This document shows, one piece after another, positions 1 through 36,912 of a stretch of DNA of 37,015 nucleotides (its first letter is position 1; each line of letters opens with the position of its first letter). The notes below the pieces were generated by a model, which worked only from the letters and a program-made list of their open reading frames with translations, did not search any database and was not told the DNA's origin. Origin of the DNA: Actinomycetaceae bacterium (GTDB lineage: Bacteria; Actinomycetota; Actinomycetes; Actinomycetales; Actinomycetaceae). A program made the translations under genes and the position numbers. The DNA lies in NCBI GenBank assembly GCA_030524055.1, contig JAUNHH010000025.1:1-37015 (forward strand), read 5' to 3'.

Positions 1-3
1 TTG

Positions 4-119: not shown

Positions 120-332
120 CACAGGCGCCTTAAGACAGTTCCATGTCCCTCTGTCCACCTGCCCGTGTTTTTGACACTGTGCGTTCATTGCAGCGCGGGT
201 TTGTACCGGCCGGCGCCGCCAATAATCCACCCGCGCCCCGCCCTCGTCAATAAAAGAACGGACCACCACACCGAGCCTGCGCGAGCCGCACTAGGCTGGG
301 CCGTATCGACCCTTGCGATTGAGGAGACTGAT
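120..332. other. Intergenic region upstream of ridA
   Basis: An open frame from 96 runs through this stretch into ridA, but it crosses the palindromic element and a copy of the 13-bp motif and resembles no RidA N-terminus, so I treat it as non-coding. Apart from the motif copy at 235-247 I see no clear promoter or RNA gene. Confidence 0.5.
235..247 (-). repeat. 13-bp dispersed motif (ACGAGGGCGGGGC)
   Basis: Perfect copy on the minus strand, in the extended form ATTGACGAGGGCGGGGC (to 251), about 85 bp upstream of ridA. Confidence 0.9.
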
Positions 333-800
333 ATGCCAACTCCCAGTGAAAAGCTCGCTGAACTCGGCCTGGAACTACCGCCCGTTGTGGCACCTGTGGC
401 CGCCTATGTGCCTGCCGTCATCGACCGTGGCGTGGTGCGTACTTCAGGCCAAATCCCCATGCGAGACGGCGCCCTGGCGTACACAGGAGCGGTCGGAAAG
501 GGTGGCACTTCGCCAGAAGATGCCACTGCAGCTGCACGTTTATGTGCACTGAATGCCCTGGCTGCTGCCGCTGACGCGGCAGGCGGGCTCGACTGTCTGG
601 CCGGAGCCATTAAAGTCACGGTTTTTGTCTCCTCTGCGCCTGATTTCACTGGCCAGCCCCAGGTTGCCAATGGAGCTTCCGAGCTCTATGGCGAGATTTT
701 CGGCACCGCCCACGCCCGTTCTGCCGTTGGGGTTGCGGTATTGCCGCTAGATTCCACCGTTGAGGTGGAAGCCGAATTCGCGCTCGTCGAGAATGAGTAA
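333..800 (+). CDS. RidA family protein (YjgF/YER057c/UK114)
   Basis: This 155-residue protein belongs to the RidA superfamily, whose archetype hydrolyses reactive 2-aminoacrylate and related enamine/imine intermediates in the cytosol. What supports this is the pattern of a proline-rich start, the VRTSGQIPMRDG segment near residue 37, the Ala-rich helix with ARLCALNALAAA, the strand IKVTVFVSSAPDF and the C-terminal VAVLPLDSTVEVEAEFALV. The length fits the longer actinobacterial relatives. I chose ATG 333 because GAGGAG lies about 7 bases upstream and the product begins with the usual MPTPSEKLAELG. The canonical catalytic Arg of the archetype (in the 'RSAV' region) appears as ARSAVGVAVLP. The gene stands alone. 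A 13-bp motif copy starts at its last stop base. The exact subfamily, and so the substrate, is uncertain. Confidence 0.9.
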   Translation: MPTPSEKLAELGLELPPVVAPVAAYVPAVIDRGVVRTSGQIPMRDGALAYTGAVGKGGTSPEDATAAARLCALNALAAAADAAGGLDCLAGAIKVTVFVSSAPDFTGQPQVANGASELYGEIFGTAHARSAVGVAVLPLDSTVEVEAEFALVENE

Positions 801-812
801 CGAGGGCGGGGC
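800..812 (+). repeat. 13-bp dispersed motif
   Basis: Perfect copy whose first base is the last base of the ridA stop codon. Confidence 0.9.
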
Positions 813-939
813 GCTGTGACTTGGCCGAGGGGTGACCTTGGCTGAAAGTCCTGAACCGGGACGCCAACGAGGCGGGCCAACTGTGCGGCAATGAGCAACG
901 CGTGGTGATTGCGCACCCTTTACACTAGACATGTATTGG

Positions 940-954
940 TACCCCCGAGGGGTA
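940..954. promoter_or_regulatory. CsoR/RicR-like palindromic operator
   Basis: The 15 bases read TACCC-CCGAG-GGGTA, a perfect TACCC-N5-GGGTA inverted repeat. This matches the general operator form of CsoR/RicR copper-sensing repressors in actinobacteria. It lies 95 bp upstream of the Cys/His-rich DUF2249 gene. A weak promoter (TTGCGC at 909, TGTATT at 932, spacer 17) would start transcription at the operator, as expected for repression. No csoR-like gene is in the window, so the assignment is inference from motif and context. Confidence 0.55.
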
Positions 955-1048
955 TAGCTGACCATCCCCGCGGGGAGTGTGGGCTGTGCCTGAATCCGAA
1001 TATATGTGCAGGTTTATGCCTGCGTCATATCGGTATTGAGAGGACAAA

Positions 1049-1687
1049 ATGACTGAGACGAATCCTGCAGCTGCTGCAGAAAATGGACGCCAAGTCTTCC
1101 GCCTTGTTGACCACCGGGCTGCTGCCCAGCCATCAGGTGGTGGCAGCTGTGGATGTGGTGGAAAAGGTCACGCTCACCGGGCTGCTGGCGGCGTAGATAC
1201 TGCGCGCCCTGCTGGTGGAGGCTGTGGCTGTGGTGGTCACGGCAAAGGACATGGACATGGTGGCGGCCATGGACACGGCCACGGCGGTGGGGGCTGCGGA
1301 TGTGGAGGCCACGGACACCAACGCGGGGCGCAGGCTGCTGCCGAAACCGCTGAAACAACTGACACTGCGCCCGCCGAGGCCCCTAAAACCACTGAGGCTG
1401 CCGCATCAGCCGGAGGCTGTGGCTGCGGCAGCTCTTCGGCCGCAGGAGTGCGCGCCCAAGCTTCAAATGACGAATTTGTGGTGGCCTCAATTCCACCAAT
1501 TGTCCGCAAAGCGGTTCTTTTTGCGGCCCTGGACGCAATTCCAGTGGGCGAATATCTGATCCTTCGGGCGCCTCACCAGCCAGAACATGCATTCGATCAC
1601 CTGCGCGACTCTGAATCCCACTACCGGGTAGAAACGCTGGAAGCTGGCCCCACCGATTGGCGCTACCGCATTACCCGCCTGAGCTGA
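1049..1687 (+). CDS. Cys/His-rich metal-binding-like protein with C-terminal DUF2249 domain
   Basis: The protein has 212 residues. The N-terminal half is Gly-rich with four CGC clusters (around residues 34, 59, 83 and 124) and a His-Gly run between residues 64 and 90 (HGHGHG-type repeats), a composition expected to bind soft metals such as Cu, Zn or Ni. An Ala/Thr/Pro linker (residues 91-120) joins it to a C-terminal domain from about residue 145 (PPIVRKAVLFAALDAIPVGEYLILRAPHQPEHAFDHL...WRYRI). That domain has the DUF2249 pattern, a small domain often found with hemerythrin-like and nitrogen-oxide/redox proteins. The start is ATG 1049 after GAGAGGA. A CsoR/RicR-like palindrome upstream suggests metal control. 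I infer a cytosolic metal buffer or metal-dependent redox partner; the DUF2249 function is not established. Confidence 0.75.
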   Translation: MTETNPAAAAENGRQVFRLVDHRAAAQPSGGGSCGCGGKGHAHRAAGGVDTARPAGGGCGCGGHGKGHGHGGGHGHGHGGGGCGCGGHGHQRGAQAAAETAETTDTAPAEAPKTTEAAASAGGCGCGSSSAAGVRAQASNDEFVVASIPPIVRKAVLFAALDAIPVGEYLILRAPHQPEHAFDHLRDSESHYRVETLEAGPTDWRYRITRLS

Positions 1688-1733
1688 CAGGGGCGAGTGC
1701 GAGCGCTCGCGGGTTAATCAGCGAATCAACGCC

Positions 1734-1769
1734 AAGCGCGGCAGGGCAGTACTTCGCCCTGCCGCGCTT
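1734..1769 (+). terminator. Hairpin terminator after the DUF2249 gene
   Basis: Two perfect 14-bp arms (AAGCGCGGCAGGGC and its complement) flank an 8-base loop, followed by TTT. It lies 47 bp after the stop codon. Confidence 0.75.
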
Positions 1770-1969
1770 TAGTGTGACAACCCGCGTCCGCGATGACATT
1801 TGCTGTTTGGAAATGCGTTGTGGTGGCGGTTTGTCAGCGCGGCGCGATGCAGATGGGTGCCCAGGCCCCAACCCTGCGCCCACAACGCAGAATCGCTGCA
1901 CACAAATACCTGTGTATTCATAGTCGCGTCCCTCTTGGCGCCACAGCAAACCTCCTCTACCGTTAGGTC

Positions 1970-2471: not shown

Positions 2472-2501
2472 GGGCGGGGCATAAAATTTCGCGCCCCGCC
2501 C
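2472..2501. terminator. Bidirectional hairpin between convergent genes, one arm formed by the 13-bp motif
   Basis: GGGCGGGGC (2472-2480) pairs with GCCCCGCCC (2493-2501) across a 12-base A/T-rich loop. It lies between the SRPBCC stop and the DUF2218 stop. There is no strong T-run. Confidence 0.5.
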
Positions 2502-2505
2502 TCGT
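2493..2505 (-). repeat. 13-bp dispersed motif
   Basis: Perfect copy; its GC-rich part forms the right arm of the 2472-2501 hairpin. Confidence 0.9.
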
Positions 2506-2537
2506 ACTTTTGGGCCCTGGCCTCGTACTGAAAGAAA

Positions 2538-3167
2538 CTACTCCCCGCGACTGCGTCGTTCTTCGCGAAGACGACGATGCTCCGCCACTTCTTCTGCGGT
2601 GAGCGGCCCCTGCGTGGTCCCCGCAGTCCCATCTGTGCGCTGCCAGGTCACGGCCAAGGCGTCTTTGACCCCAAAACGCGCCAAGTGAATGCCAATCACA
2701 TGTTCAAGGCCAGCAAGATCCCCAATGGGAGACGTCGGATCGGCAGGTGCGCTAGCGTCGGCAGTGAGGGTCAAAACCAGTGCACCCTCCTCGCAGTCAA
2801 CCGCGCAGTGCGCACGAAAATCGTCACGCACAAAATGCAAGTCACCACGGTCGCCCTGATCATCCCAGGTCGCGTTGATTTTATGGCCCATATGGGACAC
2901 CAGTTGCCGACCGTAGCGGGAAGGGCGTTCCGTGGCTACGCGAGCAATGGACGACGGGGCAATGGACGAGGGCGGGGTGCGATTCTCATTGGAAGCGGGG
3001 CCTGTGGGCGCCTCCCCCTGGGAAAGGGCAGCAAGGGCAGCCTGCTCTGCGCTTACCCCTGGCTCGGCCACTGCATTATCAATTGTCATGAGTACATCCT
3101 CGCTCAAATAAGGCCAGCCTTCCACAAAGGGGGGTAACTCCACAATCGGGTGAAAGTCCACAGCCAA
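2538..3167 (-). CDS. DUF2218 domain-containing protein
   Basis: This 209-residue protein has a DUF2218 domain from about residue 80 to 175: RYGRQLVSHMGHKINATW, a central strand segment DDFRAHCAVDCEEGALVLTLTA, and LEHVIGIHLARFGVKDALAVTWQR. DUF2218 is a small actinobacterial/proteobacterial domain of unknown function. The N-terminal 80 residues are low complexity and include the tandem peptide SSIAPSSIA. That peptide is encoded where a copy of the 13-bp motif and a degenerate neighbour lie side by side. The C-terminus is charged (AEHRRLREERRSRGE). The start is TTG 3167, with AGAGG upstream; GTG 3161 is an equally possible start. The gene is divergent from the moxR operon. Confidence 0.75.
   Translation of the reverse strand: MAVDFHPIVELPPFVEGWPYLSEDVLMTIDNAVAEPGVSAEQAALAALSQGEAPTGPASNENRTPPSSIAPSSIARVATERPSRYGRQLVSHMGHKINATWDDQGDRGDLHFVRDDFRAHCAVDCEEGALVLTLTADASAPADPTSPIGDLAGLEHVIGIHLARFGVKDALAVTWQRTDGTAGTTQGPLTAEEVAEHRRLREERRSRGE
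2966..2978 (+). repeat. 13-bp dispersed motif (last base T) with a degenerate tandem partner
   Basis: AATGGACGAGGGCGGGGT sits directly after AATGGACGACGGGGC, giving a local duplication inside the DUF2218 gene. Confidence 0.85.
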
Positions 3168-4255: not shown

Positions 4256-5859
4256 CTCTTCGGCCAACAGAACGTGGAATGGCGGTCATTGCAATGACTG
4301 TCATTCTTTTCCTTCTGCACCGCATTATGGGGCTGAGGGAAGTGACCTATTTAATGACCCTTTTTATGGGGTGGATTATTGTGGCAATCGCATGTGCTAT
4401 AGGAATAGCATTAGTGGCGAGGCCGCGGATAAGTCGAATGTTCTGCGATATTGCCACTCCGTATGTGGGAGATAAACTCCGGGTAAGTGCCGAAATAGAA
4501 ACTACCCTTCCCTGGACGACTTTTATTCGGGTGCTGTGGGCGGCGGGGCAACACGCTCCGACCTATGCAACGAATCATCACCTGAGTGGGCGGCGCGGGT
4601 TGATTACTATTCCTATTAAGGCGCGTCGGCGTGGGCTTCTTGAGGTTGAAATCCGCCATATCGCCTGGTCGGATCCATTTTCTTTATTTTCTTTCCGGCG
4701 GAAACTGCGTGGAGCGACCTCGATATTAATCCTGCCAACGCCATTAAATCCGGGGAAGGAAGCGCGTCCGGCAGGTGCCCCCAGGTCGCGTTCAATTCCC
4801 ATTGACGAGGGCGAAGCGGCAGGTGCAATACGTGAATATCGAAATGGTGATGCTCCGCGCTCTATTCACTGGAAACAAAGTGCCCGCCAGGGGCGTTTAT
4901 TAGTGAATGTCCCTGAAGTGCCAGCACCTCAAGTTGCCACACTTGTCCTAGATACGCGTGAAACCTCATGGACTATTAATAGCGACCAGCGTGAGGGATC
5001 TGCTGCGAAAACACGCCCGATAATTGACTGGGCTGCATTTGAACGGGCCATTCGCGTGTGCGCCTTTTATATTGAGGAATGGCTGGAAAATGGGGAAGAT
5101 ATTGAATTGCATGTGGGAGATCGGGTTTTAGATAGCTCTGAACTGGGTGGCGATGCGCTCATTTGCGAATTAGCGCAAGTGAATATTGAGAGTCGGGAGG
5201 AATATCAGAATTGGCGCCCCGATGAAGGGGACCGATTATCAACCCTGGTTGGTTCACCCAGATCTGCGGAACTATGCGAGTATCTTGCTCCGGAAGGCTC
5301 CTTTATCTGTAGTGATCTGGATGTGAATGATGGCGCAGCTAATACCCCGCTAGGCGACAGTAACGCAGTGGTTACCCCATCTGGCTGGACGCTGGTGAGA
5401 GTGGGCCCCGATACGGGCGCTACTGCTGGCTATGCGCAGGGCCCCGCCCTCGGCGATTTTGATGATGGGCAGGAGAACTATGGCTTTGATGCCTATGACG
5501 CGGAACTAGAGGCAAGTGGGCCGCTGGTGGCAGTGCCCGGCAGTCATTTACCTCGTTTTTACCCTAAGTATGCGCCGATCCCGGGGATGCCGATCCACCC
5601 TGCTGCCTCACTATTCGACCAGGTGTCGCCAAGTGAGGCCTACTCTTCACCCCAATCCTCTGTCCACACACCTGCGCCACCGGCGCCAACACGGCCCCGG
5701 AATTCTCATTATGGAGCCACCTATTCACCGTCATCAACGGCTGCTCCTGACGTGCCACATTCGCCGGGTGTGCCACATGGGCCCCGTATGCCGCATTCTC
5801 CGGGTATGCCACATCCCCCCAGCTCAGGCAATCCGCCGTATTTTGGGGGGCGCCAATAG
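4252..5859 (+). CDS. DUF58 domain-containing membrane protein
   Basis: The protein has 535 residues. Two membrane segments occupy roughly residues 10-26 and 33-56. A DUF58 core follows with the family signature REYRNGDAPRSIHWKQSARQGRLLV (residues 194-218). This family is always near moxR and is proposed to be its partner. After about residue 350 comes a long acidic, then Pro/His/Ser-rich tail. Its end has a short tandem repeat of the type PHSPGVPHG/PHSPGMPH (about residues 503-525). The tail is unusual for the family and probably unstructured. The start is GTG 4252, overlapping the moxR stop; the stop TAG shares one base with the GTG of the next gene. The IDEGEAAG segment (residues 184-191) is encoded by a degenerate copy of the 13-bp motif, but may simply be conserved. 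Confidence 0.9.
   Translation: MTLRPTERGMAVIAMTVILFLLHRIMGLREVTYLMTLFMGWIIVAIACAIGIALVARPRISRMFCDIATPYVGDKLRVSAEIETTLPWTTFIRVLWAAGQHAPTYATNHHLSGRRGLITIPIKARRRGLLEVEIRHIAWSDPFSLFSFRRKLRGATSILILPTPLNPGKEARPAGAPRSRSIPIDEGEAAGAIREYRNGDAPRSIHWKQSARQGRLLVNVPEVPAPQVATLVLDTRETSWTINSDQREGSAAKTRPIIDWAAFERAIRVCAFYIEEWLENGEDIELHVGDRVLDSSELGGDALICELAQVNIESREEYQNWRPDEGDRLSTLVGSPRSAELCEYLAPEGSFICSDLDVNDGAANTPLGDSNAVVTPSGWTLVRVGPDTGATAGYAQGPALGDFDDGQENYGFDAYDAELEASGPLVAVPGSHLPRFYPKYAPIPGMPIHPAASLFDQVSPSEAYSSPQSSVHTPAPPAPTRPRNSHYGATYSPSSTAAPDVPHSPGVPHGPRMPHSPGMPHPPSSGNPPYFGGRQ
5441..5453 (-). repeat. 13-bp dispersed motif, 12 of 13 bases
   Basis: GCCCCGCCCTCGG lies inside the tail-coding part of the DUF58 gene. 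Confidence 0.6.
5752..5822 (+). repeat. Short tandem repeat encoding PHSPGxPHxP peptides
   Basis: Degenerate units around GTGCCACATTCGCCGGG and ATGCCGCATTCTCCGGG recur about every 21-36 bases in the 3' end of the DUF58 gene and encode the proline/histidine-rich C-terminus. Confidence 0.6.
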
Positions 5860-8579
5860 TGGAGCGTAAAGAAGGCATTATTCAACCCCTTTTTGGGCCA
5901 CCGTGGAATGGCGGTGACGGTCGCTGGAGAATCGTACCGTGTGGTATTTTTATTCTCCTTCTCTGGATTGTCGCATTGCGCGGTCTTAATGAGCTTTTTG
6001 CCCCTGGGCGATGGCAAACAATGGCCCTACTGATTATTTCTCTCGCCATTGTTCCCGGAATTATTGCGCGATTTATCGTTCCTTCTGCGCGTATTATTGC
6101 CACGAGTAGTGGGACAATAGGTAGCCTCCTTGGCTTTATGTTCTATTTGTGGGTGAATGGAAGAGTTGAGCCCTGGCTGCGTGATCCTATTGGGCAAAGA
6201 GATGCTATTCGTGACGCTATTATGAATAGTGCTGCCCCAATGGAAGTTCTGGTTCCCACCAGCGATATGGTCCTCGCCCTCGTTTTATTAACCGTATGGC
6301 TGAGCCTCCTTTTATTAGTTGGTACTGATTCCCTGTTTTTGTCCGCCCTCGTTCCCACAGCTCTTGCCCTCACCTCAACTATTGTCACCGGACTGCGGAT
6401 TGAAGCATTGGTTACGTGGGGTTTGCTTGCTGCGTGGGTGGGGGTCCTTTGGGCGGCATCCCCTGAATCGCCTCCCGCTCGAATTCGTGGATTTGTCGCT
6501 CGCCTTATTGATCGAATCCGCACAGGAACTGCCCGACTGGTGGCCGCGATCTGCGCCATTGGGGTTGCCTCATTCCTCGTTACCATTGTCCCCATTGGAG
6601 AAACGCACCCGTGGAGTGCCACTGGTGTTGCGCCTGCCCCAGTTGGATCAACTGTTCCTGACGTGACTGTTTCCCTGAGTAATCAGATCCGCCGTGGCGC
6701 AGAAACCACAGCATTCCGCTATACGGGTATTCCTGCGGGCACCTCTTCGCGTTTTACTTTGGCTAGTCTGGCTGATTTTGAGAGCGGCACATGGAAGCCC
6801 ATTGATACGCCAAATTTGCTGCCATTAGAACGGGAAATGGACATTAATGCGCCGAATTATTCGGGCGTTTTAGAGTCTCTTCCCATTCGTTCCGATAGGG
6901 AGCAACCAGCTGTTGAAGGCAGTGTGGCCATTGAAGTTCAAGGACTGGTCAGCGAATGGTTGCCCCTCCTTCAAGGGACATGGCAGTTGGACCCTGTAGG
7001 GCCAGGTGCCACAGTGAATCTGGGGCCAACACAGGTCACCACCACTGAGCAAGCGACCACTATTGAACCTGAAAAGTGGGGATGGGTTCCCGGGACCGAT
7101 ACGATCCGTTCCCCTGACGGGTCAACGCGCCGAGCTATGGTGTATAGCGTAAAAGGCTGGGCGTCATCAGAAATTAGCGGGCCAAATAGTGTGAATCTCT
7201 TGGCGCTGGACCGAGATGATAATGGCGCTGCCCTAAAACGCATTATTGAGGTGCCAAACGAGTCTATTGACGCAACTACTTCTCATGGTGTGGACCTGTC
7301 GCGCTATTTAACATTGCCAGAAGGAATGCCGGAAGAAATATCCGCCGCCGCCCAGGAAGCTACTGCTAATGCGGCAACCCCACTGGCAAAAGCAAAGGCT
7401 TTAGAAGTCTACTTCACGTCAGGCAATTTTAAATACGACGAGTCGATTCCCTACACTGCTGGGTCAAATCCAGCAGACCCCTATGGGGTAATGACAGCAC
7501 TATTAGAGCAGCGCAGCGGATTTTGTGTGCACTATGCCTCGACCTATGCCGTAATGGCCCGCGAATTAGGTATTCCCACCCGATTATCAGTGGGTTATGC
7601 GACGCGCACAGATGATTCCAATGAATGGGTCAGTGTCAGTGGCCGAGATCTCCATGCTTGGCCTGAAGTGCACGTTGATGGGATTGGTTGGGTGCCCGTT
7701 GAGCCCACACCTGGTGGGGCAGGATGGCGCGCAAATACAGGGAATCGGGAGGAACCGCCTGCCACTCAGGACGCTCAAAGTGCAGATAGTCAAAGTGCGG
7801 AATCAGAGCAGTCTGAGAATGCCCAGTCAGCGGCCGATAGTGCGGCTGAACAAAGCCAATCCGAAGAGGAGGGGATTTCCTCGGGGTCTACGTCTGGCAG
7901 CCCAGGAGTAGGTAGTGATGCTGCCAGGGACGGTGGCATTGGGGCGTGGTTTGGGCGAGCCTGGGCCGCGTTTATGGCGGTATTTCCATGGTTGTGCGGA
8001 CTCGCCTTGCTAGTGGGCGTGCTGTGCGCACCGCGACTGATTCGCGCTCAGCGGGCGCGTCAGCGTCGAGAAGCAGTAGCGCGCGGCGATATGCCTGCGA
8101 GCGCAGCCTGGGATGAGGTGCTCGATACTGCAGCGGACCTGGGGTGGGTAAGTGTTGACGTCGCTGGATGGCGTAGTGTGCGCAGCGGACGCGGGCCAGT
8201 GCGGGCGGTGGCAGGCACTGGCGGAGAATTGCGTGCCCGCACAGCGGAAGCGGTAGTCGAATACCTCGAAAATACGGGGGCTTTGCCCGTCTCTGAAGAA
8301 TCAACGAGGGCGGGGCACTATCTTCTTCACGCTCTTGACGGAGAAAAATGGGCGCCGGAAGGTGAAGCCGCGTGGGTGGCCAGCCAAGATATGGCTGCGC
8401 TTGGCGGAGCAGTATCCGCAGCGGTGCCGTCTGTGTCCCCAGATGATTTGGCAATGGCGCGCGACATTCTCCTTGCGGGTCTGTGGAATAGTGCCGCACC
8501 TGGGCAGCGAGTGCGTGCAAGGTGGGTGCCGGCCACTGTTTTTGCTCGGCGCACAAGGAACCTGCGGGGAAAGGGGTAG
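5859..8579 (+). CDS. Transglutaminase-like membrane protein (TgpA/DUF3488 type)
   Basis: The protein has 906 residues. About six N-terminal membrane helices (residues 20-265) are followed by an extracytoplasmic region, a transglutaminase core, a Ser/Gln/Glu-rich linker (about 625-690), a further membrane helix (about 702-722) and a cytosolic tail. The core has Cys556 in RSGFCVHYAS and His599 in GRDLHAWPEVHV. The third triad position, 16 residues on, is Glu615 in VPVEPTPG rather than Asp. It completes the moxR-DUF58-transglutaminase operon, a conserved trio usually linked to envelope or secreted protein maturation; the substrate is unknown. The GTG start overlaps the upstream stop by one base. 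A 13-bp motif copy sits inside the coding region near the 3' end, encoding STRAGHY. Confidence 0.92.
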   Translation: MERKEGIIQPLFGPPWNGGDGRWRIVPCGIFILLLWIVALRGLNELFAPGRWQTMALLIISLAIVPGIIARFIVPSARIIATSSGTIGSLLGFMFYLWVNGRVEPWLRDPIGQRDAIRDAIMNSAAPMEVLVPTSDMVLALVLLTVWLSLLLLVGTDSLFLSALVPTALALTSTIVTGLRIEALVTWGLLAAWVGVLWAASPESPPARIRGFVARLIDRIRTGTARLVAAICAIGVASFLVTIVPIGETHPWSATGVAPAPVGSTVPDVTVSLSNQIRRGAETTAFRYTGIPAGTSSRFTLASLADFESGTWKPIDTPNLLPLEREMDINAPNYSGVLESLPIRSDREQPAVEGSVAIEVQGLVSEWLPLLQGTWQLDPVGPGATVNLGPTQVTTTEQATTIEPEKWGWVPGTDTIRSPDGSTRRAMVYSVKGWASSEISGPNSVNLLALDRDDNGAALKRIIEVPNESIDATTSHGVDLSRYLTLPEGMPEEISAAAQEATANAATPLAKAKALEVYFTSGNFKYDESIPYTAGSNPADPYGVMTALLEQRSGFCVHYASTYAVMARELGIPTRLSVGYATRTDDSNEWVSVSGRDLHAWPEVHVDGIGWVPVEPTPGGAGWRANTGNREEPPATQDAQSADSQSAESEQSENAQSAADSAAEQSQSEEEGISSGSTSGSPGVGSDAARDGGIGAWFGRAWAAFMAVFPWLCGLALLVGVLCAPRLIRAQRARQRREAVARGDMPASAAWDEVLDTAADLGWVSVDVAGWRSVRSGRGPVRAVAGTGGELRARTAEAVVEYLENTGALPVSEESTRAGHYLLHALDGEKWAPEGEAAWVASQDMAALGGAVSAAVPSVSPDDLAMARDILLAGLWNSAAPGQRVRARWVPATVFARRTRNLRGKG
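8304..8316 (+). repeat. 13-bp dispersed motif
   Basis: Perfect copy inside the cytosolic-tail part of the transglutaminase-like gene. Confidence 0.9.
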
Positions 8580-8604
8580 TGGTTTATGGCTTCTGTCGGT
8601 ACTG

Positions 8605-8639
8605 CCCGCCCTCGTATCCCATAGGGATGGGGTGGCGGG
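8605..8639 (+). terminator. Possible hairpin terminator after the transglutaminase-like gene
   Basis: CCCGCC (8605-8610) and ATCCC (8616-8620) pair with GGGAT (8624-8628) and GGCGGG (8634-8639), with a mismatched stretch between. The left arm contains a degenerate 13-bp motif copy (8603-8615, 11 of 13 bases). There is no T-run. Confidence 0.35.
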
Positions 8640-17706: not shown

Positions 17707-17842
17707 TGAGGTCTCCTGAGGTTGAAGATGAAGGTTGGCTGCGACAAGCATATCTATATTGGTAAGGAAGGATCAAAGTGGGGTCCCTAACGGCAGTGCC
17801 TTCGCATCTAATATTCAGTGTGCCTCGGCCTCGTAAACTCCC

Positions 17843-18385: not shown

Positions 18386-18398
18386 GCCCCGCCCTCGT
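18386..18398 (-). repeat. 13-bp dispersed motif
   Basis: Perfect copy, extended form ATTGACGAGGGCGGGGC on the minus strand, between the hrpA stop and the SprT-like gene. Confidence 0.9.
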
Positions 18399-21400: not shown

Positions 21401-24112
21401 CTTGACTAGTGAGCGCGCTAAAGGCTCAATCCACTCGGGGCGAATGCGCGCCACTGTCCGCGCAAAAAGCCGCGATGTTTCCACTAACTCGGCGGTCATG
21501 ACCCACGCTGGGTGGGAACGCGCTAAACCAGAACCTGGCCAAATCGTGAAATGGGTGCCTCGGGCTCCCTGATAATCGCGTTTGACCTCATCCCAATTGC
21601 CGAGATTCGACAGCAGGCCGACAAGGAGAGACCGGTGAATATCATCGGCGTCAACGCTATTTGTTGATGAGGTATACCGGACGGTTGCACGCGCCGCCGC
21701 ATTGAGAATGCCGCCGCTGTGGGCTTCTTCAGCAATATCTCCAGCCGATGGTAAACCAATAGGCTCCACATTGAGATCGAGTGGCCGTGCCATTTGCCGT
21801 AATTGGGTAACGACATCACGCCATTCGCGATAACGCAGATAGTGCAGGAATTCGCCACGACACATTCGCCTAAATTGCGAGCCGGACAGGTCTCGACTTT
21901 GGACACCTAAATAGCGCCACAGATTCAGGTAGGTAATGAAATCAGAATGCGGGTCAGTAAAACGTGCATGGGCAGTATCGGCAGATTGCTGGTGCTCCAA
22001 TGGGCGTTCGCGCACATCTTGAATCGACAGCGCCGCCACAATTACGAGCACTTCAGAAGCGCAGCCATGTTCATCGGCTTCGATCAGCATTCTGCCGAGG
22101 CGCGGGTCAATAGGAAGGCGCGCTAAATCCCGGCCAATAGCCGTTAAACGTGGGCCGGCCGCAGCGGTTTTCCCGTGACGTGAGCGCGCCCCGCCCTCGT
22201 CAATAGTTAAAGCCCCGATTTCGACGAGAAGCTGAATGCCGTCGCGCACTGCCCGCGAATCTGGCGGGTCAAGGAATGGGAAATCAGAAACGGAACCCAG
22301 GCCTAAGGCCGCCATCTGCAAAATGACAGATGCTAAAGATGTGCGGAGGATTTCTGGTTCAGTAAATGCGGGGCGAGTGGCGAAATCATCGGCTGCAAAA
22401 AGGCGAATAGCAATGCCGTCAGCGACACGGCCACAACGCCCAGCTCGCTGATTAGCGCTGGCCTGCGAAATAGGCTCAATAGGGAGGCGCTGTACTTTCG
22501 TGCGATGAGAGTAACGAGAAATGCGCGCTAAACCTGGGTCAATCACATACCGAATCCCCGGCACTGTCAGTGACGTTTCTGCAACATTCGTGGCTAAAAC
22601 AACCCGGCGCAGAGAATGCGGCTCAAAAACTCTTTGCTGTTCAGCGGCAGAAAGACGGGCAAAAAGCGGAACGATCTCTATAGACCCTGGAAGGATGGGC
22701 TGGGCTTTACCGTCTTTAGTGGCTTTCAGGGCGCGCGGACCTAAATGGTCAATAAGAGCCTGTTCGACATCGCGAATATCCCGTTCACCGGGGAGGAAAA
22801 CAAGAATATCTCCATCGCCTTCTGCGCAGAGTTCATCCACTGCATGGCAAATAGCGGTTTCAATATCAATATCCTCGCCCAGGCCATATCCTAAAGACGG
22901 TAAATCGTCATCCGGATCTTCCAGGAGAAGATGATCGGGTTTTAATGCGGAATCCTGGGTGGGGATGAGGTCTGTTTCTGCGGGTGAATCTGGGGATTCT
23001 CCCGATTGCGTTGACCAATTTTTTGGTGTTGTGGGTGATAGCGGCCGATAGCGGATTTCCACTGGATATGTGCGCCCAGAAACCTCAATGACCGGCGCAG
23101 TCTCCCGCAGAACTCCCTTACCAGGGGCACCGTCCCATACACCGAAATGCTGAGCGAAACGCGTCGAATCAATAGTGGCCGAGGTGATAATGACTTTAAG
23201 GTCTGGGCGGGCCGGTAAAAGACGTGCTAAATACCCAAGGATAAAGTCAATATTCAGGCTACGTTCGTGGGCTTCGTCAATAATGAGAGTGTCATAACGG
23301 CGTAATAATGGGTCAGATTGTATTTCTGCCAGCAAAATGCCGTCAGTCATTAATTTAATAAGGGTATTGGGCCCGACTTCATCAGTAAAACGCACCTGAT
23401 AGCCCACAACTTGATCGGGTGACTTCCCGACTTTTTGACCCAATTCGTGGGCAATTCGGTCGGCCACAGCGCGCGCCGCAATTCGGCGCGGCTGAGTGTG
23501 CCCAATCATTCCGGATACGCCGCGCCCCAATTGCAGGCAGATTTTTGGCAGCTGAGTGGTTTTACCCGAGCCGGTTTCGCCAGCAACAATTACTACTTGG
23601 TGGTCACGAATTGCGTCGGCGATTTCGTCCCGCCGGGCAGAAACCGGTAAATCTGGGAAAGAAATGACCGGGATTGCGGCTGCGCGTCCAGCTAATTCTT
23701 CCGGGGTGAAAGGCTGCCAAGGGGTGGCGTATTCGTGGGTGGGTGTGCGCCGACGAGGGCGGGGCTGCTCTGCTTGGTGGTGGGAACGGGCCACGGTGCG
23801 CTTGCGTGACGGGTGAGTGGATTGGCTGTGCGAAGGGCTGCCAGAACGACGGGAAGAACGACGAGGGGATTCTGGATCTGAGCCTGCAGCATTAGGGGAG
23901 GGGCTGCGTTGATTGCGTGATTTGTGCGAGTGCTGGGCGCCAGAGTGCGAACCCGCGCCACTGCGCGGACGCCGACGAGATCCCTGCCGTGGTTGGCGCG
24001 GATCAGAGGGCTGGGGGGTAGATGATTCTGGCACCGCATTAGTGTATCGGTGCCCACCCACATTTCCTGTTGAGACGATTTCCGCCAGCGTCTTGTCCAC
24101 CTCACGGCCCAA
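18422..24112 (-). CDS. hrpA: ATP-dependent RNA helicase HrpA, with extended linkers
   Basis: A DEAH-box helicase of up to 1896 residues. Walker A is GETGSGKTTQ (from residue 178), the DEAH box is at 279-282 and SAT at 311-313. These are followed by the second RecA domain, a winged-helix/HA2/OB region and the HrpA-specific DUF3418 C-terminal part. E. coli HrpA has about 1300 residues. The excess is an Arg/Ser-rich N-terminal tail (1-130) and low-complexity linkers at about 1040-1085, 1285-1440 and 1515-1580. Five 13-bp motif copies lie in this gene; four fall in the tail or linkers and one in a loop near 640 (TIDEGGARSRHG). The start is uncertain: TTG 24112, GTG 24100, or GTG 24061, which has AGGA closely upstream. 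Confidence 0.93.
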   Translation of the reverse strand: MGREVDKTLAEIVSTGNVGGHRYTNAVPESSTPQPSDPRQPRQGSRRRPRSGAGSHSGAQHSHKSRNQRSPSPNAAGSDPESPRRSSRRSGSPSHSQSTHPSRKRTVARSHHQAEQPRPRRRTPTHEYATPWQPFTPEELAGRAAAIPVISFPDLPVSARRDEIADAIRDHQVVIVAGETGSGKTTQLPKICLQLGRGVSGMIGHTQPRRIAARAVADRIAHELGQKVGKSPDQVVGYQVRFTDEVGPNTLIKLMTDGILLAEIQSDPLLRRYDTLIIDEAHERSLNIDFILGYLARLLPARPDLKVIITSATIDSTRFAQHFGVWDGAPGKGVLRETAPVIEVSGRTYPVEIRYRPLSPTTPKNWSTQSGESPDSPAETDLIPTQDSALKPDHLLLEDPDDDLPSLGYGLGEDIDIETAICHAVDELCAEGDGDILVFLPGERDIRDVEQALIDHLGPRALKATKDGKAQPILPGSIEIVPLFARLSAAEQQRVFEPHSLRRVVLATNVAETSLTVPGIRYVIDPGLARISRYSHRTKVQRLPIEPISQASANQRAGRCGRVADGIAIRLFAADDFATRPAFTEPEILRTSLASVILQMAALGLGSVSDFPFLDPPDSRAVRDGIQLLVEIGALTIDEGGARSRHGKTAAAGPRLTAIGRDLARLPIDPRLGRMLIEADEHGCASEVLVIVAALSIQDVRERPLEHQQSADTAHARFTDPHSDFITYLNLWRYLGVQSRDLSGSQFRRMCRGEFLHYLRYREWRDVVTQLRQMARPLDLNVEPIGLPSAGDIAEEAHSGGILNAAARATVRYTSSTNSVDADDIHRSLLVGLLSNLGNWDEVKRDYQGARGTHFTIWPGSGLARSHPAWVMTAELVETSRLFARTVARIRPEWIEPLARSLVKKVHSEPYWSASKGAAMIKEKVLLYGMTLVAERPVLLGSLGDSPLGSAVSTPTRAFRRVRAGTVAGRAQGLGLGDTSADASSTASGDAALAQDRAELFAALSLADPTFDVNIRSDYLADALAASKGAAPSLASDSTDQSAIDLPATDAAPEHLADQSHSPAPPSSMDQEPGSDQPSARDLAREMFIVHALVRGEWRERHAFQQRNEELLDQAKEVERRSRTHALVADEHALCAFFDERIPDRITSAAHFNRWWKDHRRKNPDFLTWTLDLLLPRGVGNNSEGFPDHWVSGDMELPLSYQFSPGSARDGVTMTIPIEVLARVREEGTDWLVPGMLEELITESIRALPKAKRRLLAPAPEVGSRAAQWIRDTIFTTPASGGGGGSEAEGSAPSINEGGATHPKVATDNAYGPADASTTNADSQHGPTSDAAAKDGPAEDPMSLDAALGRLAAWGQRTGQARQASHKRASKKQGGHTQRSQKNGEQLSAAKDPAPATASSETAPTEQSLTAAISPASDSVSTLEGSRPRPRPSFVSAFSSAITVLRGVDLDEADLAYMRDHLPDHLRMTFVVIDRSGKELGSGPDLAYLQKTLASQSDAAIRTAVRSAVSDALDKKRRSTGGKQVAATHLGHTPADPPPTPAMAAASDTPTTPATSDDAATGGPATPDLNGAPGLAHPPSVKPADADFSAVSQGLHLDNLTDFPTDALPLSVDSPSGALTLRGFPSLVPQGDTATPRAGVRVMASVAEASRRHREGLAMLLTLRLSLATKRVTTRWTGRQALMLTATAYPNTEALIADAQYASALSLVDELTGEAGPESIRSRDAFENMARRARDLHEDRVYEILGYVVRAMEAKAETDGALRAAPPSLDEVTEDILRTVDALVSNGFLRETPLRWLPHIARYIKAGAVRIERATGGSAALDRDIDNMDRLHQVEAELADAQAAADRRPWDAGRAATLLEARWLVEELRVSLFAQQLGTSQKISVKRVLALVERGR
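19820..19832 (+). repeat. 13-bp dispersed motif, last base G
   Basis: Inside the hrpA linker, encoding the segment RPRPRPSF on the minus strand. Confidence 0.85.
20214..20226 (-). repeat. 13-bp dispersed motif
   Basis: Perfect copy inside the hrpA linker, encoding NEGGAT. Confidence 0.9.
20911..20923 (+). repeat. 13-bp dispersed motif
   Basis: Perfect copy with the ATTG extension inside the hrpA linker, encoding PAPPSSMD on the minus strand. Confidence 0.9.
22188..22200 (-). repeat. 13-bp dispersed motif
   Basis: Perfect copy, extended ATTGACGAGGGCGGGGC, in a loop insertion of hrpA (IDEGGARS). Confidence 0.9.
23753..23765 (+). repeat. 13-bp dispersed motif
   Basis: Perfect copy in the basic N-terminal tail of hrpA, encoding QPRPRR on the minus strand. 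Confidence 0.9.
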
Positions 24113-24130
24113 CTTGTACCGCTGTCACAG

Positions 24131-24168: not shown

Positions 24169-24178
24169 TCGCAGCCGG

Positions 24179-24197: not shown

Positions 24198-24212
24198 TTC
24201 CGTGCGTGCCGT

Positions 24213-25292: not shown

Positions 25293-25398
25293 TTAATCCT
25301 CCGAATAGGTCCACAATGATTCGCGTGAGATTCTTGGCGCCACCATCCAGTGTGGCACGGTTTGACTTGAGTGTCAGAGGAAGGCCTTCACTACCCGT

Positions 25399-25466
25399 GT
25401 CGCAAAGCTGCGATATCAGCGCATTCACCCTCGTGAATAAAACGAGGCCGGGGTATTCTCTTAGTT
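25399..25466 (+). promoter_or_regulatory. Conserved leader of DUF2004 paralogue 1
   Basis: About four of five positions match the leader at 27289-27355, right up to the start codon. It contains TGCGATATCAGCGC and a hairpin CCTCGT-GAATAAA-ACGAGG, the latter made from two inverted partial copies of the 13-bp motif (right one ACGAGGCCGGGGT, 25442-25454). No clear -35/-10 pair is visible. Confidence 0.6.
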
Positions 25467-25946: not shown

Positions 25947-25984
25947 CGCTCCCCACCAGCGTGCCTGGATGTTAACATCGCGTT

Positions 25985-26446: not shown

Positions 26447-26447
26447 G

Positions 26448-27288: not shown

Positions 27289-27355
27289 GTCGCAGGGTTG
27301 CGATATTGGCGCATTTGCCCTCGTAAATAGAACAAGGGCGGGGTAGCCTCTCTCT
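27289..27355 (+). promoter_or_regulatory. Conserved leader of DUF2004 paralogue 2
   Basis: Matches the 25399 leader, including TGCGATATTGGCGC and the sequence GCCCTCGTAAATAGAACAAGGGC. The last contains an inverted pair of motif halves; the right copy is ACAAGGGCGGGGT (27332-27344, two mismatches). Confidence 0.6.
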
Positions 27356-27907: not shown

Positions 27908-27936
27908 GAATGTCCTATCCTGCCCACTTTCCATTT

Positions 27937-28045
27937 ACGAGGGTGGGATATTCTCCTTTTGTCACCGCTATTTGTCATCACTATTTCGGCATATCCGGCA
28001 CCGCATTAATCGGTGACAATGGTGTCGAAATGGACTGGGAAGTCT
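27937..28045 (+). pseudogene. Decayed third DUF2004 copy
   Basis: ACGAGGGTGGGATATTCTC (27937-27955) resembles the end of the conserved leader. It is followed by codons reading VTAICHHYFGISGTALIGD and NGVEMDWEV. These align with MTRISHPYFGPLDTDLIDD and NGVEIDLEL of paralogue 1, with about 12 residues lost between the two blocks. The expected ATG is GTC, and similarity ends near 28045. It overlaps the 3' end of the SUKH-like gene on the other strand. Confidence 0.7.
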
Positions 28046-29096: not shown

Positions 29097-29197
29097 GGCT
29101 GTCTTCCTTTCGTCATTTCAAGCGGGATTCGACGCGAATCACTAGGAAAGGCAGCGTTTTCTATTCCAGTGAAATGGGAGCGTATTACCCACTGTGC

Positions 29198-30115: not shown

Positions 30116-30243
30116 AGGCCTCTCCTTACCATTGAAACAACGCGGATCATCATATCGGCTGCCTATCTTCACTCGCCTGCCCGCGACGTATCAAAGCTGA
30201 GTCATGCGCAGTTCAGCACGGAGTCATGAAGTGCGCTATATGC

Positions 30244-30256
30244 GCCCCGCCCTCGT
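30244..30256 (-). repeat. 13-bp dispersed motif
   Basis: Perfect copy 23 bp upstream of the PfkB gene. Confidence 0.9.
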
Positions 30257-30279: not shown

Positions 30280-31344
30280 ATGACGCACGCGCTCTTCGTT
30301 GGCCTGACAACCCTTGATGTTGTTCACGGACTGGACCACGCCCCAGACCCGACCCGTAAAACGACCTCCACTGATCACGTCATGTGCGCGGGCGGGCCGG
30401 CCACAAATGCGGCTGTCACTTTTGCGGCGCTTGATCGTGTGGCGGCCAGACTCAGCGCAGAAAACCCTGCGGCCGCCGCAGCAGAAGCCGCCCCCAGCCC
30501 AGATCCCACGAACGCGGTTTCCCTTTTGACTGCCGTCGGCACTAGCGCTATTGCTGACCTTATCCGCGCGGACCTGGGCGCCTGCGGCCTGGAGATCCTC
30601 GACGCTTGCGCACCCGTCGCCAACAACGCCCCCGAGCAAGCCCCCGCGGTCTGCTCCATTATTGAGCACCCCACGGGCAGAATGGTGGCCTCGACAAATG
30701 CGCGCCTCGACACTGACGCTGACCTCGCCAGGCGTCTCCTCATGCAGGCAGTTGCCACCCACGGCGAGCCAGACATTATCCTTGTTGACGGGCATAACCC
30801 CGCCCTCGCCAATGAGGCCCTGAAGTGGGGGATTGACGCGCAAACGGACCAGCAAGGCTCAGACGACCCCTTTGTTGAGCTCACTGCAAAACCCCCTCAC
30901 CTGCGGGTACTCGATGGAGGATCGTGGAAACCGTGGTTTACTCCGCTGCTCGGATTTATCGATATTGCTGCCGTGTCCGCCGATTTCTGCCCGCCACTGC
31001 TTACCGAACCCGCTCCCGACGCCGTCGCGGAATTCCTCAAGGGATTTGGGATTACGCGGATTATTCGCACTGACGGTGAAGGCCCTGTGCGCTGGTGGTG
31101 GGATGGTGGCGAAGGTGAGGTCCCTGTCCACGCTGTTAACGCTTTTTCAACGATGGGCGCAGGCGACATTTTCCACGGAGCCCTATGCTGGGCGCTGGCT
31201 CGCCGCACGTCAGATGCGCGCACGCTGACGGACCCAAGCGAGGTCATCGCTTTTGCCGCCGCCATCGCCACACAGTCCACCACCACTTTCGGTACGCGAG
31301 TCTGGCGCGAGGATCCGGAGATTGCCCGCATTATTGCGGGTTAG
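30280..31344 (+). CDS. PfkB family carbohydrate/nucleoside kinase
   Basis: The 354-residue kinase of the ribokinase fold phosphorylates a sugar or nucleoside with ATP in the cytosol. CAGGPATNAAVTFAAL (about residues 36-51) is the first PfkB signature (substrate binding). NAFSTMGAGDIFHGAL (287-302) is the second, with the catalytic Asp296. An Ala/Pro-rich insert lies at residues 56-78. An incomplete copy of the 13-bp motif (30797-30809) encodes NPALANEA. Which sugar is used cannot be decided from the sequence. It is a single gene, and a motif copy follows it after 12 bp. Confidence 0.9.
   Translation: MTHALFVGLTTLDVVHGLDHAPDPTRKTTSTDHVMCAGGPATNAAVTFAALDRVAARLSAENPAAAAAEAAPSPDPTNAVSLLTAVGTSAIADLIRADLGACGLEILDACAPVANNAPEQAPAVCSIIEHPTGRMVASTNARLDTDADLARRLLMQAVATHGEPDIILVDGHNPALANEALKWGIDAQTDQQGSDDPFVELTAKPPHLRVLDGGSWKPWFTPLLGFIDIAAVSADFCPPLLTEPAPDAVAEFLKGFGITRIIRTDGEGPVRWWWDGGEGEVPVHAVNAFSTMGAGDIFHGALCWALARRTSDARTLTDPSEVIAFAAAIATQSTTTFGTRVWREDPEIARIIAG
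30797..30809 (-). repeat. 13-bp dispersed motif, two mismatches
   Basis: ACCCCGCCCTCGC followed by CAAT, inside the PfkB gene. Confidence 0.6.
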
Positions 31345-31356: not shown

Positions 31357-31369
31357 ACGAGGGCGGGGC
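31357..31369 (+). repeat. 13-bp dispersed motif
   Basis: Perfect copy just after the PfkB stop codon, between convergent genes. Confidence 0.9.
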
Positions 31370-32392: not shown

Positions 32393-32770
32393 ATGGGTAC
32401 AAAGTTCGGCCTCATTCTTGGCCTCGGTATTGGGTATGTTCTGGGTACGCGCGCAGGTCGCGAACAATATGAACGGATTCGGGCAGGCGCATCCCGTTTG
32501 CGTCAAGTGCCCGTCGTAGCCAAGCCCCTCGATCGCGCAGGAGAAAAACTCTCTGACGTGGTGCGCGCCCAGGGCGAAGCTGTCACCGATAAAGTCGCTG
32601 AAGCAGTCAAAGAACGTCTCTTTGGAATGCCCGCAGATGGGCGGAGCTCTTCTGGCAGCGCTGGGGCGTCCGGGTCCAGCTCTGCCGCCTCCGCCCCGGG
32701 CCCCACCGAAGGCCCAGGAGGCGCAAGTTTCACTGATCCTGGCACCCCGCCCTCGTCCCAAGGACGCTGA
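32393..32770 (+). CDS. YtxH-like membrane-associated protein
   Basis: The 125-residue protein has an N-terminal Gly-rich membrane segment (KFGLILGLGIGYVLGTRAGRE, residues 4-24 less its ends) that matches the YtxH/gas-vesicle-type actinobacterial small proteins. An amphipathic helix (YERIRAGASRLRQVP...VKERLFG) and a Ser/Ala/Gly/Pro-rich tail follow. The last codons, encoding TPPSSQGR, contain a 13-bp motif copy (32744-32756). It starts at ATG 32393 with CGGAGAG upstream. It lies 38 bp before the VIT1-type gene. Function unknown; probably envelope-associated. Confidence 0.75.
   Translation: MGTKFGLILGLGIGYVLGTRAGREQYERIRAGASRLRQVPVVAKPLDRAGEKLSDVVRAQGEAVTDKVAEAVKERLFGMPADGRSSSGSAGASGSSSAASAPGPTEGPGGASFTDPGTPPSSQGR
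32744..32756 (-). repeat. 13-bp dispersed motif, one mismatch
   Basis: ACCCCGCCCTCGT at the 3' end of the YtxH-like gene. Confidence 0.85.
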
Positions 32771-33935: not shown

Positions 33936-33948
33936 ACGAGGCCGGGGT
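33936..33948 (+). repeat. 13-bp dispersed motif, two mismatches
   Basis: ACGAGGCCGGGGT, 9 bp after the VIT1-type stop codon. Confidence 0.7.
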
Positions 33949-34267: not shown

Positions 34268-34315
34268 CTTCTTTTTAGGTCCTCAGGTTCCCCATGTCTG
34301 GCGTGCCCCATTTTG

Positions 34316-34450
34316 TTCAAGGCATAGTTTGCTTCTCAAGGCACCGTTCGGCGCTCAGGGCATAGTTTTAGCCTCAAGGCACCGTTAAATTACGAATTAA
34401 CGCTGCCTTGAGCACGGAACTATGCCTTGAGTTCAAAAGTATGCCCTGAG
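34316..34450. repeat. 19-bp-phased palindromic repeat element, copy 2
   Basis: Four direct units (34316, 34335, 34354, 34373) and three inverted units (34404, 34423, 34442) show the exact 19-bp period of copy 1. The second half of the direct units alternates between CATAGTTT and CACCGTT. The centre is GTTAAATTACGAATTAAC. The elements differ in unit number and lie 34.3 kb apart. Confidence 0.95.
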
Positions 34451-35605: not shown

Positions 35606-35614
35606 TGGGCATAT

Positions 35615-35627
35615 ACGAGGCCGGGGC
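35615..35627 (+). repeat. 13-bp dispersed motif, one mismatch
   Basis: ACGAGGCCGGGGC, 9 bp after the DUF559 stop codon. Confidence 0.8.
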
Positions 35628-35638
35628 GCGCGTAAAAG

Positions 35639-35682
35639 AAAAGCGGGAGCTGAAAACATGGTGGTTTTCAGCTCCCGCTTTT
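35639..35682. terminator. Strong bidirectional terminator
   Basis: Perfect 19-bp arms AAAAGCGGGAGCTGAAAAC and complement around the loop ATGGTG, with A/T ends on both sides. It lies between the convergent DUF559 and DUF4352-like genes. Confidence 0.92.
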
Positions 35683-35693
35683 GTTGTCAGCAG

Positions 35694-36551
35694 TTACTTC
35701 ACTGCAATAAAGGCCTTGTCTGTTAGGAAGTCTGGCTGTATTGCCAGTACCCCGTCTTCTAAGCCTTCAGTCGGGACAACTAGGTCGATATTTCCCCTCA
35801 CTGAAGCGCCAGAATATAGTGAGGATGTGGAGTCGAGGCTGTAAGGAATGTCAGCATAAGTGCCCAGCGAGTCGTAGCTATGTCCCTGAGGGCTGACATA
35901 TTCAACGCGCATGAAGGGTATTGCTCCATTGGGGTCGTTACCTATGTAAGTAACCGTGACATCTAGCAGAATGTAGGTATAGCCATCAACCGGAACCTGG
36001 TTAAATCTATTGAAGCTGGTCACGGCTTCGGTGGCGTCAAGGTCAACATGATTTACAGTGAAGATCCACTCGTAATTCGATAGTGGGGTGCCAATCGGAA
36101 AAGGATTTTCCCGGGTTCCCTCACGCGGTTCATTGCTAGGTGTGTGAGCGTTTGCGTCTTCCGGTGTAACAGTAGGAGCCGAAGTTATTGGGGGCTCCGC
36201 TGCCTGTTCAGTAGTCGTTGTCGCTGTGGGAGGTGTGTCGGTGACCTCTGTATTTAGGGACTGATCGAAAGCGGATCCGAGAACAAAAAGAAAGACGAGA
36301 ACCCCGATAATTGTCCCGGTCACTGAGACAATAATGGCGCTTACCCCTGGCCATATCACCTTGTTTTTCAGAACCGCGGCAACAATGCCGAGGATAAATC
36401 CAATGGGGAGAAGGATCCAGCCGACAATAAGAATGCCGGGAATGCATGCACAAATAAAGCCGATAATAGAGATTGTCAGGGCGACAATTCCAAGTGGGTT
36501 GCTTTCTTTTCTCGCTATTTGAGGCGGGAAATCAGGTGCTGGGGGATACAT
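35694..36551 (-). CDS. Membrane-anchored DUF4190/DUF4352-like protein
   Basis: The protein has 285 residues. A short Pro-rich cytosolic start precedes two or three hydrophobic segments (about residues 20-96), a DUF4190-like membrane region with GIVALTISIIGFICACIPGILI. A Thr/Pro/Glu-rich linker (100-145) follows. The outer domain from about 150 (GTRENPFPIGTPLSNYEWIFTVNHVD...YILLDVTVTYIGND) resembles DUF4352, an immunoglobulin-like extracellular domain of unknown function. The start ATG 36551 follows TTGGAG. The adjacent strong terminator suggests a monocistronic gene. Confidence 0.75.
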   Translation of the reverse strand: MYPPAPDFPPQIARKESNPLGIVALTISIIGFICACIPGILIVGWILLPIGFILGIVAAVLKNKVIWPGVSAIIVSVTGTIIGVLVFLFVLGSAFDQSLNTEVTDTPPTATTTTEQAAEPPITSAPTVTPEDANAHTPSNEPREGTRENPFPIGTPLSNYEWIFTVNHVDLDATEAVTSFNRFNQVPVDGYTYILLDVTVTYIGNDPNGAIPFMRVEYVSPQGHSYDSLGTYADIPYSLDSTSSLYSGASVRGNIDLVVPTEGLEDGVLAIQPDFLTDKAFIAVK

Positions 36552-36688
36552 AGTGCTCCAATGGACTTCACTGCTGACGGGATGTCAGAAACGATCATAC
36601 GCCCAGGTAAAAGACAGTATGTGCGACTAGTATCCAAAATTTAAAGAGAGGGTGACGTCAAGTATTGTTGCCCATGGCCATGGCATCT

Positions 36689-36701
36689 ACGAGGGCGGGA
36701 C
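36689..36701 (+). repeat. 13-bp dispersed motif, one mismatch
   Basis: ACGAGGGCGGGAC in the right-hand intergenic region. Confidence 0.75.
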
Positions 36702-36899
36702 CGCTTTGATTAGCGATTCCCGGATAAATGTGCCAGCAAGATGTCTGCCCGCTAGGTGGAAAGAATTTAAGTCCGCGCTATAAACCCTGACTTTGTGTAT
36801 GAGAAGTGCGGCTCATAAATCAGATCTTATTTCCAATGCGGCCGTCACTTGCCTCTGAGCCAGTGTTCATATTTCGCTCTCTAATTCCTAATTCCGGCT

Positions 36900-36912
36900 G
36901 CCCCGCCCTCGT
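36900..36912 (-). repeat. 13-bp dispersed motif
   Basis: Perfect copy on the minus strand. Confidence 0.9.

Follow-up and report, generated by a model that had tools for sequence, protein, structure and literature searches.

Uptake sequences are described only from two families of Gram-negative bacteria, the Neisseriaceae and the Pasteurellaceae, in the passages cited here (PMC7811141, PMC5031613). According to the cited part of PMC3630211, the DNA uptake sequence (DUS) of the Neisseriaceae is a short tag with hundreds to thousands of copies, located in genes and in the gaps between them; it forms inverted pairs at terminators, has an invariant inner core, and occurs as dialects of species groups. 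The uptake signal sequence (USS) of the Pasteurellaceae has a core with weak AT-rich flanks and also has dialects, and its proposed reader is the type IV minor pilin PpdA (PMC7811141, PMC12616744, cited in part). Among the actinobacteria, Micrococcus luteus has comEA and comEC homologues, and its Flp pili are reported to be required for natural transformation; the cited text mentions no uptake tag for it (PMC6370729). Here a dispersed 13-bp motif is reported from a stretch of 37,015 nucleotides (contig JAUNHH010000025.1, assembly GCA_030524055.1, Actinomycetaceae bacterium), which as a whole is called the window. The motif is probably a DNA uptake sequence with dialects in a monoderm actinobacterium, as judged from sequence comparisons.

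The motif resembles the DUS in all of the traits listed above; whereas its sequence is different, its host is a monoderm actinobacterium with two Tad-type loci, congruence with a gene tree was found for one dialect form, and the motif is known from sequence alone. It resembles the USS in having a core, weak AT-rich flanks and dialects; however, its core has another sequence and is longer and G-rich, and the host has no outer membrane. With M. luteus the host shares the actinobacterial affiliation, the comEA and comEC homologues and the Tad/Flp-type pili, which in the present case are known from genes.

The 13-mer ACGAGGGCGGGGC occurs at 28 sites in the window with at most two mismatches (12 exact, 6 with one mismatch, and 10 with two). 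Among 100 dinucleotide shuffles of the window, the mean was 1.49 sites and the maximum 5, and none reached 28. A first-pass annotation of the window had listed 23 coordinates, had considered about twenty copies improbable by chance, and had suggested an uptake signal, a recombination or segregation signal, or a small mobile repeat. All 23 coordinates hold a match (12 exact, 6 one-mismatch, 5 two-mismatch), and the improbability by chance is borne out by the shuffles. The sites beyond its list (2514, 4805, 6271, 14621 and 17822) each have two mismatches. Many copies had also been said to extend to ATTG; this is correct as a statistical extension in the larger sample of 98 copies described below, but only 4 of the 12 exact copies in the window carry it (235, 18386, 20911 and 22188). 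The sites are as follows.

235..247, minus strand, exact copy, ATTG directly before
800..812, plus strand, exact copy
2493..2505, minus strand, exact copy
2514..2526, minus strand, two-mismatch copy
2966..2978, plus strand, one-mismatch copy
4805..4817, plus strand, two-mismatch copy, ATTG directly before
5441..5453, minus strand, one-mismatch copy, antisense within open reading frame (ORF) 4252-5859
6271..6283, minus strand, two-mismatch copy
8304..8316, plus strand, exact copy within the transglutaminase-core ORF 5859-8579
8603..8615, minus strand, two-mismatch copy
14621..14633, plus strand, two-mismatch copy, ATTG directly before
17822..17834, minus strand, two-mismatch copy
18386..18398, minus strand, exact copy, ATTG directly before
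19820..19832, plus strand, one-mismatch copy, antisense within the helicase ORF 18422-24112
20214..20226, minus strand, exact copy within the helicase ORF 18422-24112
20911..20923, plus strand, exact copy, ATTG directly before, antisense within the helicase ORF 18422-24112
22188..22200, minus strand, exact copy, ATTG directly before, within the helicase ORF 18422-24112
23753..23765, plus strand, exact copy, antisense within the helicase ORF 18422-24112
25442..25454, plus strand, two-mismatch copy upstream of ORF 25467
27332..27344, plus strand, two-mismatch copy upstream of ORF 27356
30244..30256, minus strand, exact copy
30797..30809, minus strand, two-mismatch copy, ATTG directly before
31357..31369, plus strand, exact copy shortly past ORF 30280-31344
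32744..32756, minus strand, one-mismatch copy
33936..33948, plus strand, two-mismatch copy shortly past ORF 32809-33927
35615..35627, plus strand, one-mismatch copy (CCGGGGC form) shortly past ORF 34562-35605
36689..36701, plus strand, one-mismatch copy
36900..36912, minus strand, exact copy

The motif is spread over the whole genome (3,034,260 bases in 47 contigs), which contains 727 exact copies, 363 forward and 364 reverse; whereas the reversed pattern, used as a control, has no copy on either strand. The genome count proposed in the first pass thus upholds the initial observation. Other analyses were based on an own-genome sample of 437 kb, composed of the window and 20 stretches (400 kb) out of 3.03 Mb. 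These stretches were chosen, not random, and cover 240 kb from contig C3 as well as the regions around the ComEC and PF00437 matches; the sampled relatives were likewise not randomly chosen. The 13-mer is the commonest 13-mer in the sample, with 98 exact copies versus 0.07 expected from an order-4 Markov model, and a further 112 copies have one mismatch.

The positions next to the 98 exact copies are also biased, with A at -4 (69%), T at -3 (68%), T at -2 (50%), G at -1 (47%), and a weak preference for T at -9 (48%). The ATT preference holds separately in the intergenic (85) and the coding (95) sites; the intergenic sites prefer T at -9 and additionally at +18 to +20 (38-48% at the latter). 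The seventh base of the motif is variable, being G in 75% of 131 sites. The consensus is approximately ATTGACGAGG-N-CGGGGC, which is a degenerate motif of about 17 bp with weak AT-rich flanks. Conservation fades outside about -4 to +12 of the motif block, and because the block ends sharply, the motif is unlike a longer inserted element.

Gene calling relied on a home-made hexamer ORF finder, by which 84% of the sample is coding. The 98 exact sites include 55 intergenic sites, 41 in genes, and 2 at gene edges. When the common variants were included (149 sites), 75 were intergenic versus 23.7 expected, 69 were in genes, and 5 were at edges. Coding sites occupy either strand and every frame; one frame is preferred (19 of the 41 exact sites). 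It had been claimed from the window that copies lie in genes and in intergenic DNA, on both strands and in several frames, and that selection or spread acts on the DNA and not on a peptide; the sample upholds both points. The preferred frame, and the GACGAG words that are common in high-GC relatives, might point to a by-product of codon usage or of a peptide, for example repeated Asp-Glu-Gly-Gly-Ala. However, the 55 intergenic copies, the coding copies on both strands and in every frame, and the zero count of the reversed control make this origin extremely improbable. A peptide repeat was rejected in view of the intergenic and antisense copies.

The density of sites per kb is 2.88 in convergent gaps, 0.68 in co-oriented gaps, 0.52 in divergent gaps, and 0.19 in genes. 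Intergenic enrichment is also what a binding site of an abundant chromosomal protein might show, such as a nucleoid protein or a global regulator with a role in chromosome organisation or regulation. Dialects could follow any DNA-binding protein, and in the closed genome of the relative G005 divergent gaps are favoured over convergent ones (1.02 vs 0.44 per kb; 4 and 2 sites). In the own genome, however, the divergent (promoter) gaps are not favoured, the 69 sites in genes lie on both strands, and the close pairs are inverted only. A chromosomal protein of this kind is an unlikely explanation.

Neighbouring sites less than 60 bp apart are inverted in 13 of 13 pairs of the own-genome sample, and two of these pairs overlap by 2 bp. 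The close pairs of exact copies (n = 5) are all within convergent gaps. RNA folding of three inverted pairs gave a hairpin each time, with -32.8, -41.3 and -37.1 kcal/mol and z-scores of -6.1 to -8.2. A T run after the paired hairpins is mostly absent, so that a terminator function of the pairs is no more than plausible. The relatives G011 and G005 showed the same direction, more weakly, with 23 of 66 (11.8 expected) and 20 of 61 (10.6 expected) intergenic sites, and with 3 of 4 and 2 of 3 close pairs inverted, respectively.

Such hairpins, together with the placement of the five exact pairs, would also suit a small mobile element in the form of a terminator or a repetitive extragenic palindrome (REP)-like hairpin; a small mobile repeat was among the roles first suggested. 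But with only 13 close pairs among the 149 sites, the majority of copies stand alone, and 69 are intragenic; most pairs have no clear T run behind them, and conservation drops off past about -4 and +12. Relatives were also compared at coding sites (98 genes, 113 sites). An ortholog among the fetched pieces was available for 46 sites: 17 aligned without gaps in at least one relative, 3 showed only a gap in the relative, 25 were unalignable, and 1 was mixed. The sequence pairs at the sites, which are not mutually independent, comprise 90 ungapped, 8 with a gap in the relative, 5 with a gap in the query, and 134 unaligned; random positions of the same genes gave 1661, 80, 29 and 290. The share of unaligned pairs relative to the random positions indicates that the sites favour poorly conserved protein regions. 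Where a comparison can be made, the in-register positions of the relative are mostly occupied by other bases, and several sites are one base off the tag; for example, Schaalia odontolytica (L125) and G022 differ at 1 of 13 bases at aligned coding sites. Alignable coding copies thus seem to have arisen mostly by substitution and not by insertion, and a mobile hairpin repeat is very unlikely.

The sites have no genome-wide polarity. Besides the balance of 363 to 364 by strand, 91 of 180 sites agree with the GC skew of their stretch. In G005, 35 of 65 sites lie along the inferred leading strand (counted by hand in ten stretches, with the comEC stretch left out); one arm is represented by five stretches with positive GC skew, and the opposite arm by five with skew at or below zero. 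The orientation counts in G011 are 12/12 and 14/18, where the GC skew is unclear. Chi-like sites and sites guiding FtsK (KOPS-like) are directional, with an orientation bias along the replichore, and they differ between species. They do not usually form inverted hairpin pairs or reach a length of about 17 bp. A site of this type, read inside the cell by the recombination or segregation machinery, might explain the hundreds of copies, the G-rich sequence, the species-specific variants, and the mild unevenness on contig C3 (55 to 34 in 240 kb). The polarity is nevertheless absent by all three counts, and the motif has both the unusual length and the hairpin pairs. The recombination or segregation role from the first pass is disfavoured, and we consider it quite unlikely. 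Density was also related to base composition: 5-kb bins with G+C of 0.48-0.52 contain 0.86 sites on average, versus 2.37 and 2.74 in the richer bins (7, 49 and 31 bins, respectively). The low density fits recently acquired DNA, with the motif's own composition as a confounder.

Related versions of the motif were found in related genomes, a comparison that had been proposed with the initial description. The relatives comprise 78 genomes, with 34 congeners (Schaalia/Actinomyces) and 43 genomes outside the genus. The window's 13-mer has 21-162 exact copies in 7 of the 34 congeners and 0-13 in the other 27; outside the genus, each of the 43 genomes has at most 6. The congeners carry the versions ACGAGGCCGGGGC, ACGAGGACGAGGC, ACGAGGGCGAC and TTGCCGAGGCCG. 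By whole-genome counts, the CCG form ACGAGGCCGGGGC, found in S. odontolytica and others, has 29-303 copies in 12 of the 34 congeners; the remaining congeners have 0-21, and no genome outside the genus has more than 5. The form ACGAGGACGAGGC is most numerous in G005 (154 copies); no other congener exceeds 39, and genomes outside the genus reach up to 22, which indicates a higher background for this form.

In 20 congeners, a blind k-mer view of the 20 kb surrounding comEC (3.7 kb in one case) also revealed other versions of the motif word. When the top eight 12-mers were collected de novo from 14 genomes, each represented by a sample of 100-437 kb, a CGAGG-N-CG word was among them in 12. The word was clear in the window's genome (G000), G003, G005, G007, G011, G013, G014, G015 and G024, and weak (4-6 copies) in G002, G004 and G020. 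In the sample of G024 it is TTGCCGAGGCCG, with 9 copies vs 0.33 expected. The frame shared across versions is CGAGG-N-CG, often after ATTGA or similar, and the tail is variable.

The dialects were compared with a ComEC tree of 27 rows, which were labelled by the form with at least 50 whole-genome copies; 5 of these rows remained unlabelled. The genomes G000 and G013 also exceed 50 copies of the CCG form, and were labelled by the more numerous form. The CCG form (five genomes) occupies one side of a fully supported branch, and none of 500 shuffles was as good. The three labels jointly require 5 changes (minimum 2), and none of 200 shuffles was as low. A fit to the ComEC tree thus holds for the CCG form and is not claimed for all dialects. 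The genomes G012, G022 and G024, listed as the window's genus, fall among Schaalia/Actinomyces on this tree.

Other genera gave less definite results. The degenerate core WYGACGAGGNCG was uninformative across the 78 relatives, since numerous non-congeneric genomes of high GC content hold hundreds of copies, with a maximum of 1270 in G071; the reversed pattern is an unfair control for it in such genomes, and its counts were therefore not used as evidence. A scan with a ComEC alignment of 15 sequences yielded 79 named loci; none is longer than about 21 kb, which is too little for a k-mer scan to judge other genera. Among loci L166, L167 and L173, two from Arcanobacterium contain repeated GACGACG words, and one from an Actinomycetaceae metagenome-assembled genome (MAG) contains CGAGGGCGCC six times in about 20 kb. 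These words are possible related tags in other genera.

The competence genes, another check named in the first-pass annotation, are present. The genome has a comEA-comEC operon, encoding a ComEA with SLBB and helix-hairpin-helix domains and a ComEC with the Competence domain; DprA is also encoded. There are two Tad-type loci, which contain the genome's two PF00437 ATPase matches above the cut-off and neighbours with Tad/TadE domains, the other genes being judged by eye. Apart from these Tad-type loci, neither a type IVa pilus nor a minor pilin of the ComP type was identified, in analyses that did not include a search for ComP or PpdA.

The genome-wide excess, the lack of polarity, the inverted pairs, the dialects, and the competence genes together argue for the uptake-signal role, which was the first of the roles suggested. 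Most probably, tagged DNA would be preferred in natural transformation by a DNA-binding surface component of a Tad-pilus/ComEA/ComEC machine, and tagged fragments would be taken up and recombined more often. Tags would consequently accumulate and persist. They might be kept by this biased uptake, that is, by molecular drive together with any benefit of preferring the DNA of kin. Changes in the reader protein would shift the preferred bases and give rise to dialects.

Several observations weigh against an uptake function. ComEC was found in 73 of the 78 relatives and PF00437 ATPases of any type in all 78, tagged or not; the presence of these near-universal genes permits competence but does not prove it, nor does it discriminate tagged from untagged genomes. 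No receptor stands out among five pilin-like proteins and ComEA, which all have a net negative charge. The imbalance on contig C3 (55 plus vs 34 minus) has an uncorrected p of 0.03. Both forms occur in the window's genome (128 copies of ACGAGGCCGGGGC) and in G013 (159), which shows that two forms can coexist. In G008 and G016 no CGAGG-N-CG word was among the top eight 12-mers of the samples. The window's form (six genomes) is scattered on the ComEC tree with 4 changes, and 51 of 500 shuffles were as low; this is compatible with an ancestral form. An insertion is possible at the 25 of 46 coding sites that are unalignable, and gaps in the relative affect somewhat more of the aligned pairs at the sites (8 of 103) than of those at random positions (80 of 1770). 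In G011 and G005 the intergenic enrichment is merely about two-fold, with one direct close pair in each, and convergent gaps are not special in G005. Moreover, no report of natural transformation in the genus was among the literature matches listed.

Among the literature matches listed (titles and abstracts) there was also no report of an actinobacterial uptake tag, and the 13-mer itself matched one unrelated paper. If the motif is an uptake sequence, tags would have evolved independently in a cell with one membrane, and about 20 species would be comparable. The chances are slightly better than even that this is a third independent origin, in which a monoderm actinobacterial genus tells self from foreign DNA by species-group tags; their reader would be a component of a Tad/Flp-type pilus or ComEA, not a type IVa minor pilin, and exchange within Schaalia/Actinomyces would be partitioned by dialect. 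Natural transformation would then be predicted in S. odontolytica, and the addition of the right tag to DNA should help to transform such species. S. odontolytica has been grown as the host of Nanosynbacter lyticus TM7x, according to the part of PMC10633639 cited here.

The window and its relatives also contain some other features, and three of the located ones are as follows.

Window 1-120, 34310-34435 and 36954-37015, and L047 about 6036-6170, 19-bp-period repeat element
Window 27086-27121, minus strand, match to the Rfam abiF RNA (RF03085), 41.3 bits with a gathering threshold of 37
Window 29201-30172, minus strand, Ion_trans-domain protein resembling voltage-gated channels, E-value 3e-44

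The 19-bp-period repeats (CTCAAGGCATAGTTTGCTT-like) are a second dispersed element and form inverted half-arrays around an AT-rich centre; they sit at both ends of the window. The 437 kb of the own genome contain 18 matches to the pattern, which are confined to the window and L047; the samples of three relatives contain 0, 1 and 0. One copy folds at -52.5 kcal/mol (z-score -6.3).

The region 24000-30000 of the window is a low-GC stretch with weak tags only, and is likely an acquired island. ORFs 24216-25292, 25467-25943 and 27984-29096 in this region had no Pfam match, and ORF 27356 had a DUF2262 match below the cut-off. The abiF RNA match lies near ORF 27984-29096; the two are possibly an AbiF-type defence pair. 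ORFs 25467 and 27356 have similar gene starts (window 25400-25470 and 27290-27360), each following a CCTCGT...AC(G/A)AGG(C/G)C arrangement with a degenerate tag.

Different repeats were seen in two relatives. Actinomyces provencensis (G014; L069, L097-L101) has a dispersed repeat GAACAGAGCGGAC(TTC), with 13 copies in 120 kb, 9 of which are within 20 kb around comEC. The samples of G016 (L071, L107-L111) contain about 47 clustered copies of a CRISPR-like unit with TCTATCAAGAGGATTGGTAAC, and 10 remain once copies within 300 bp are merged.

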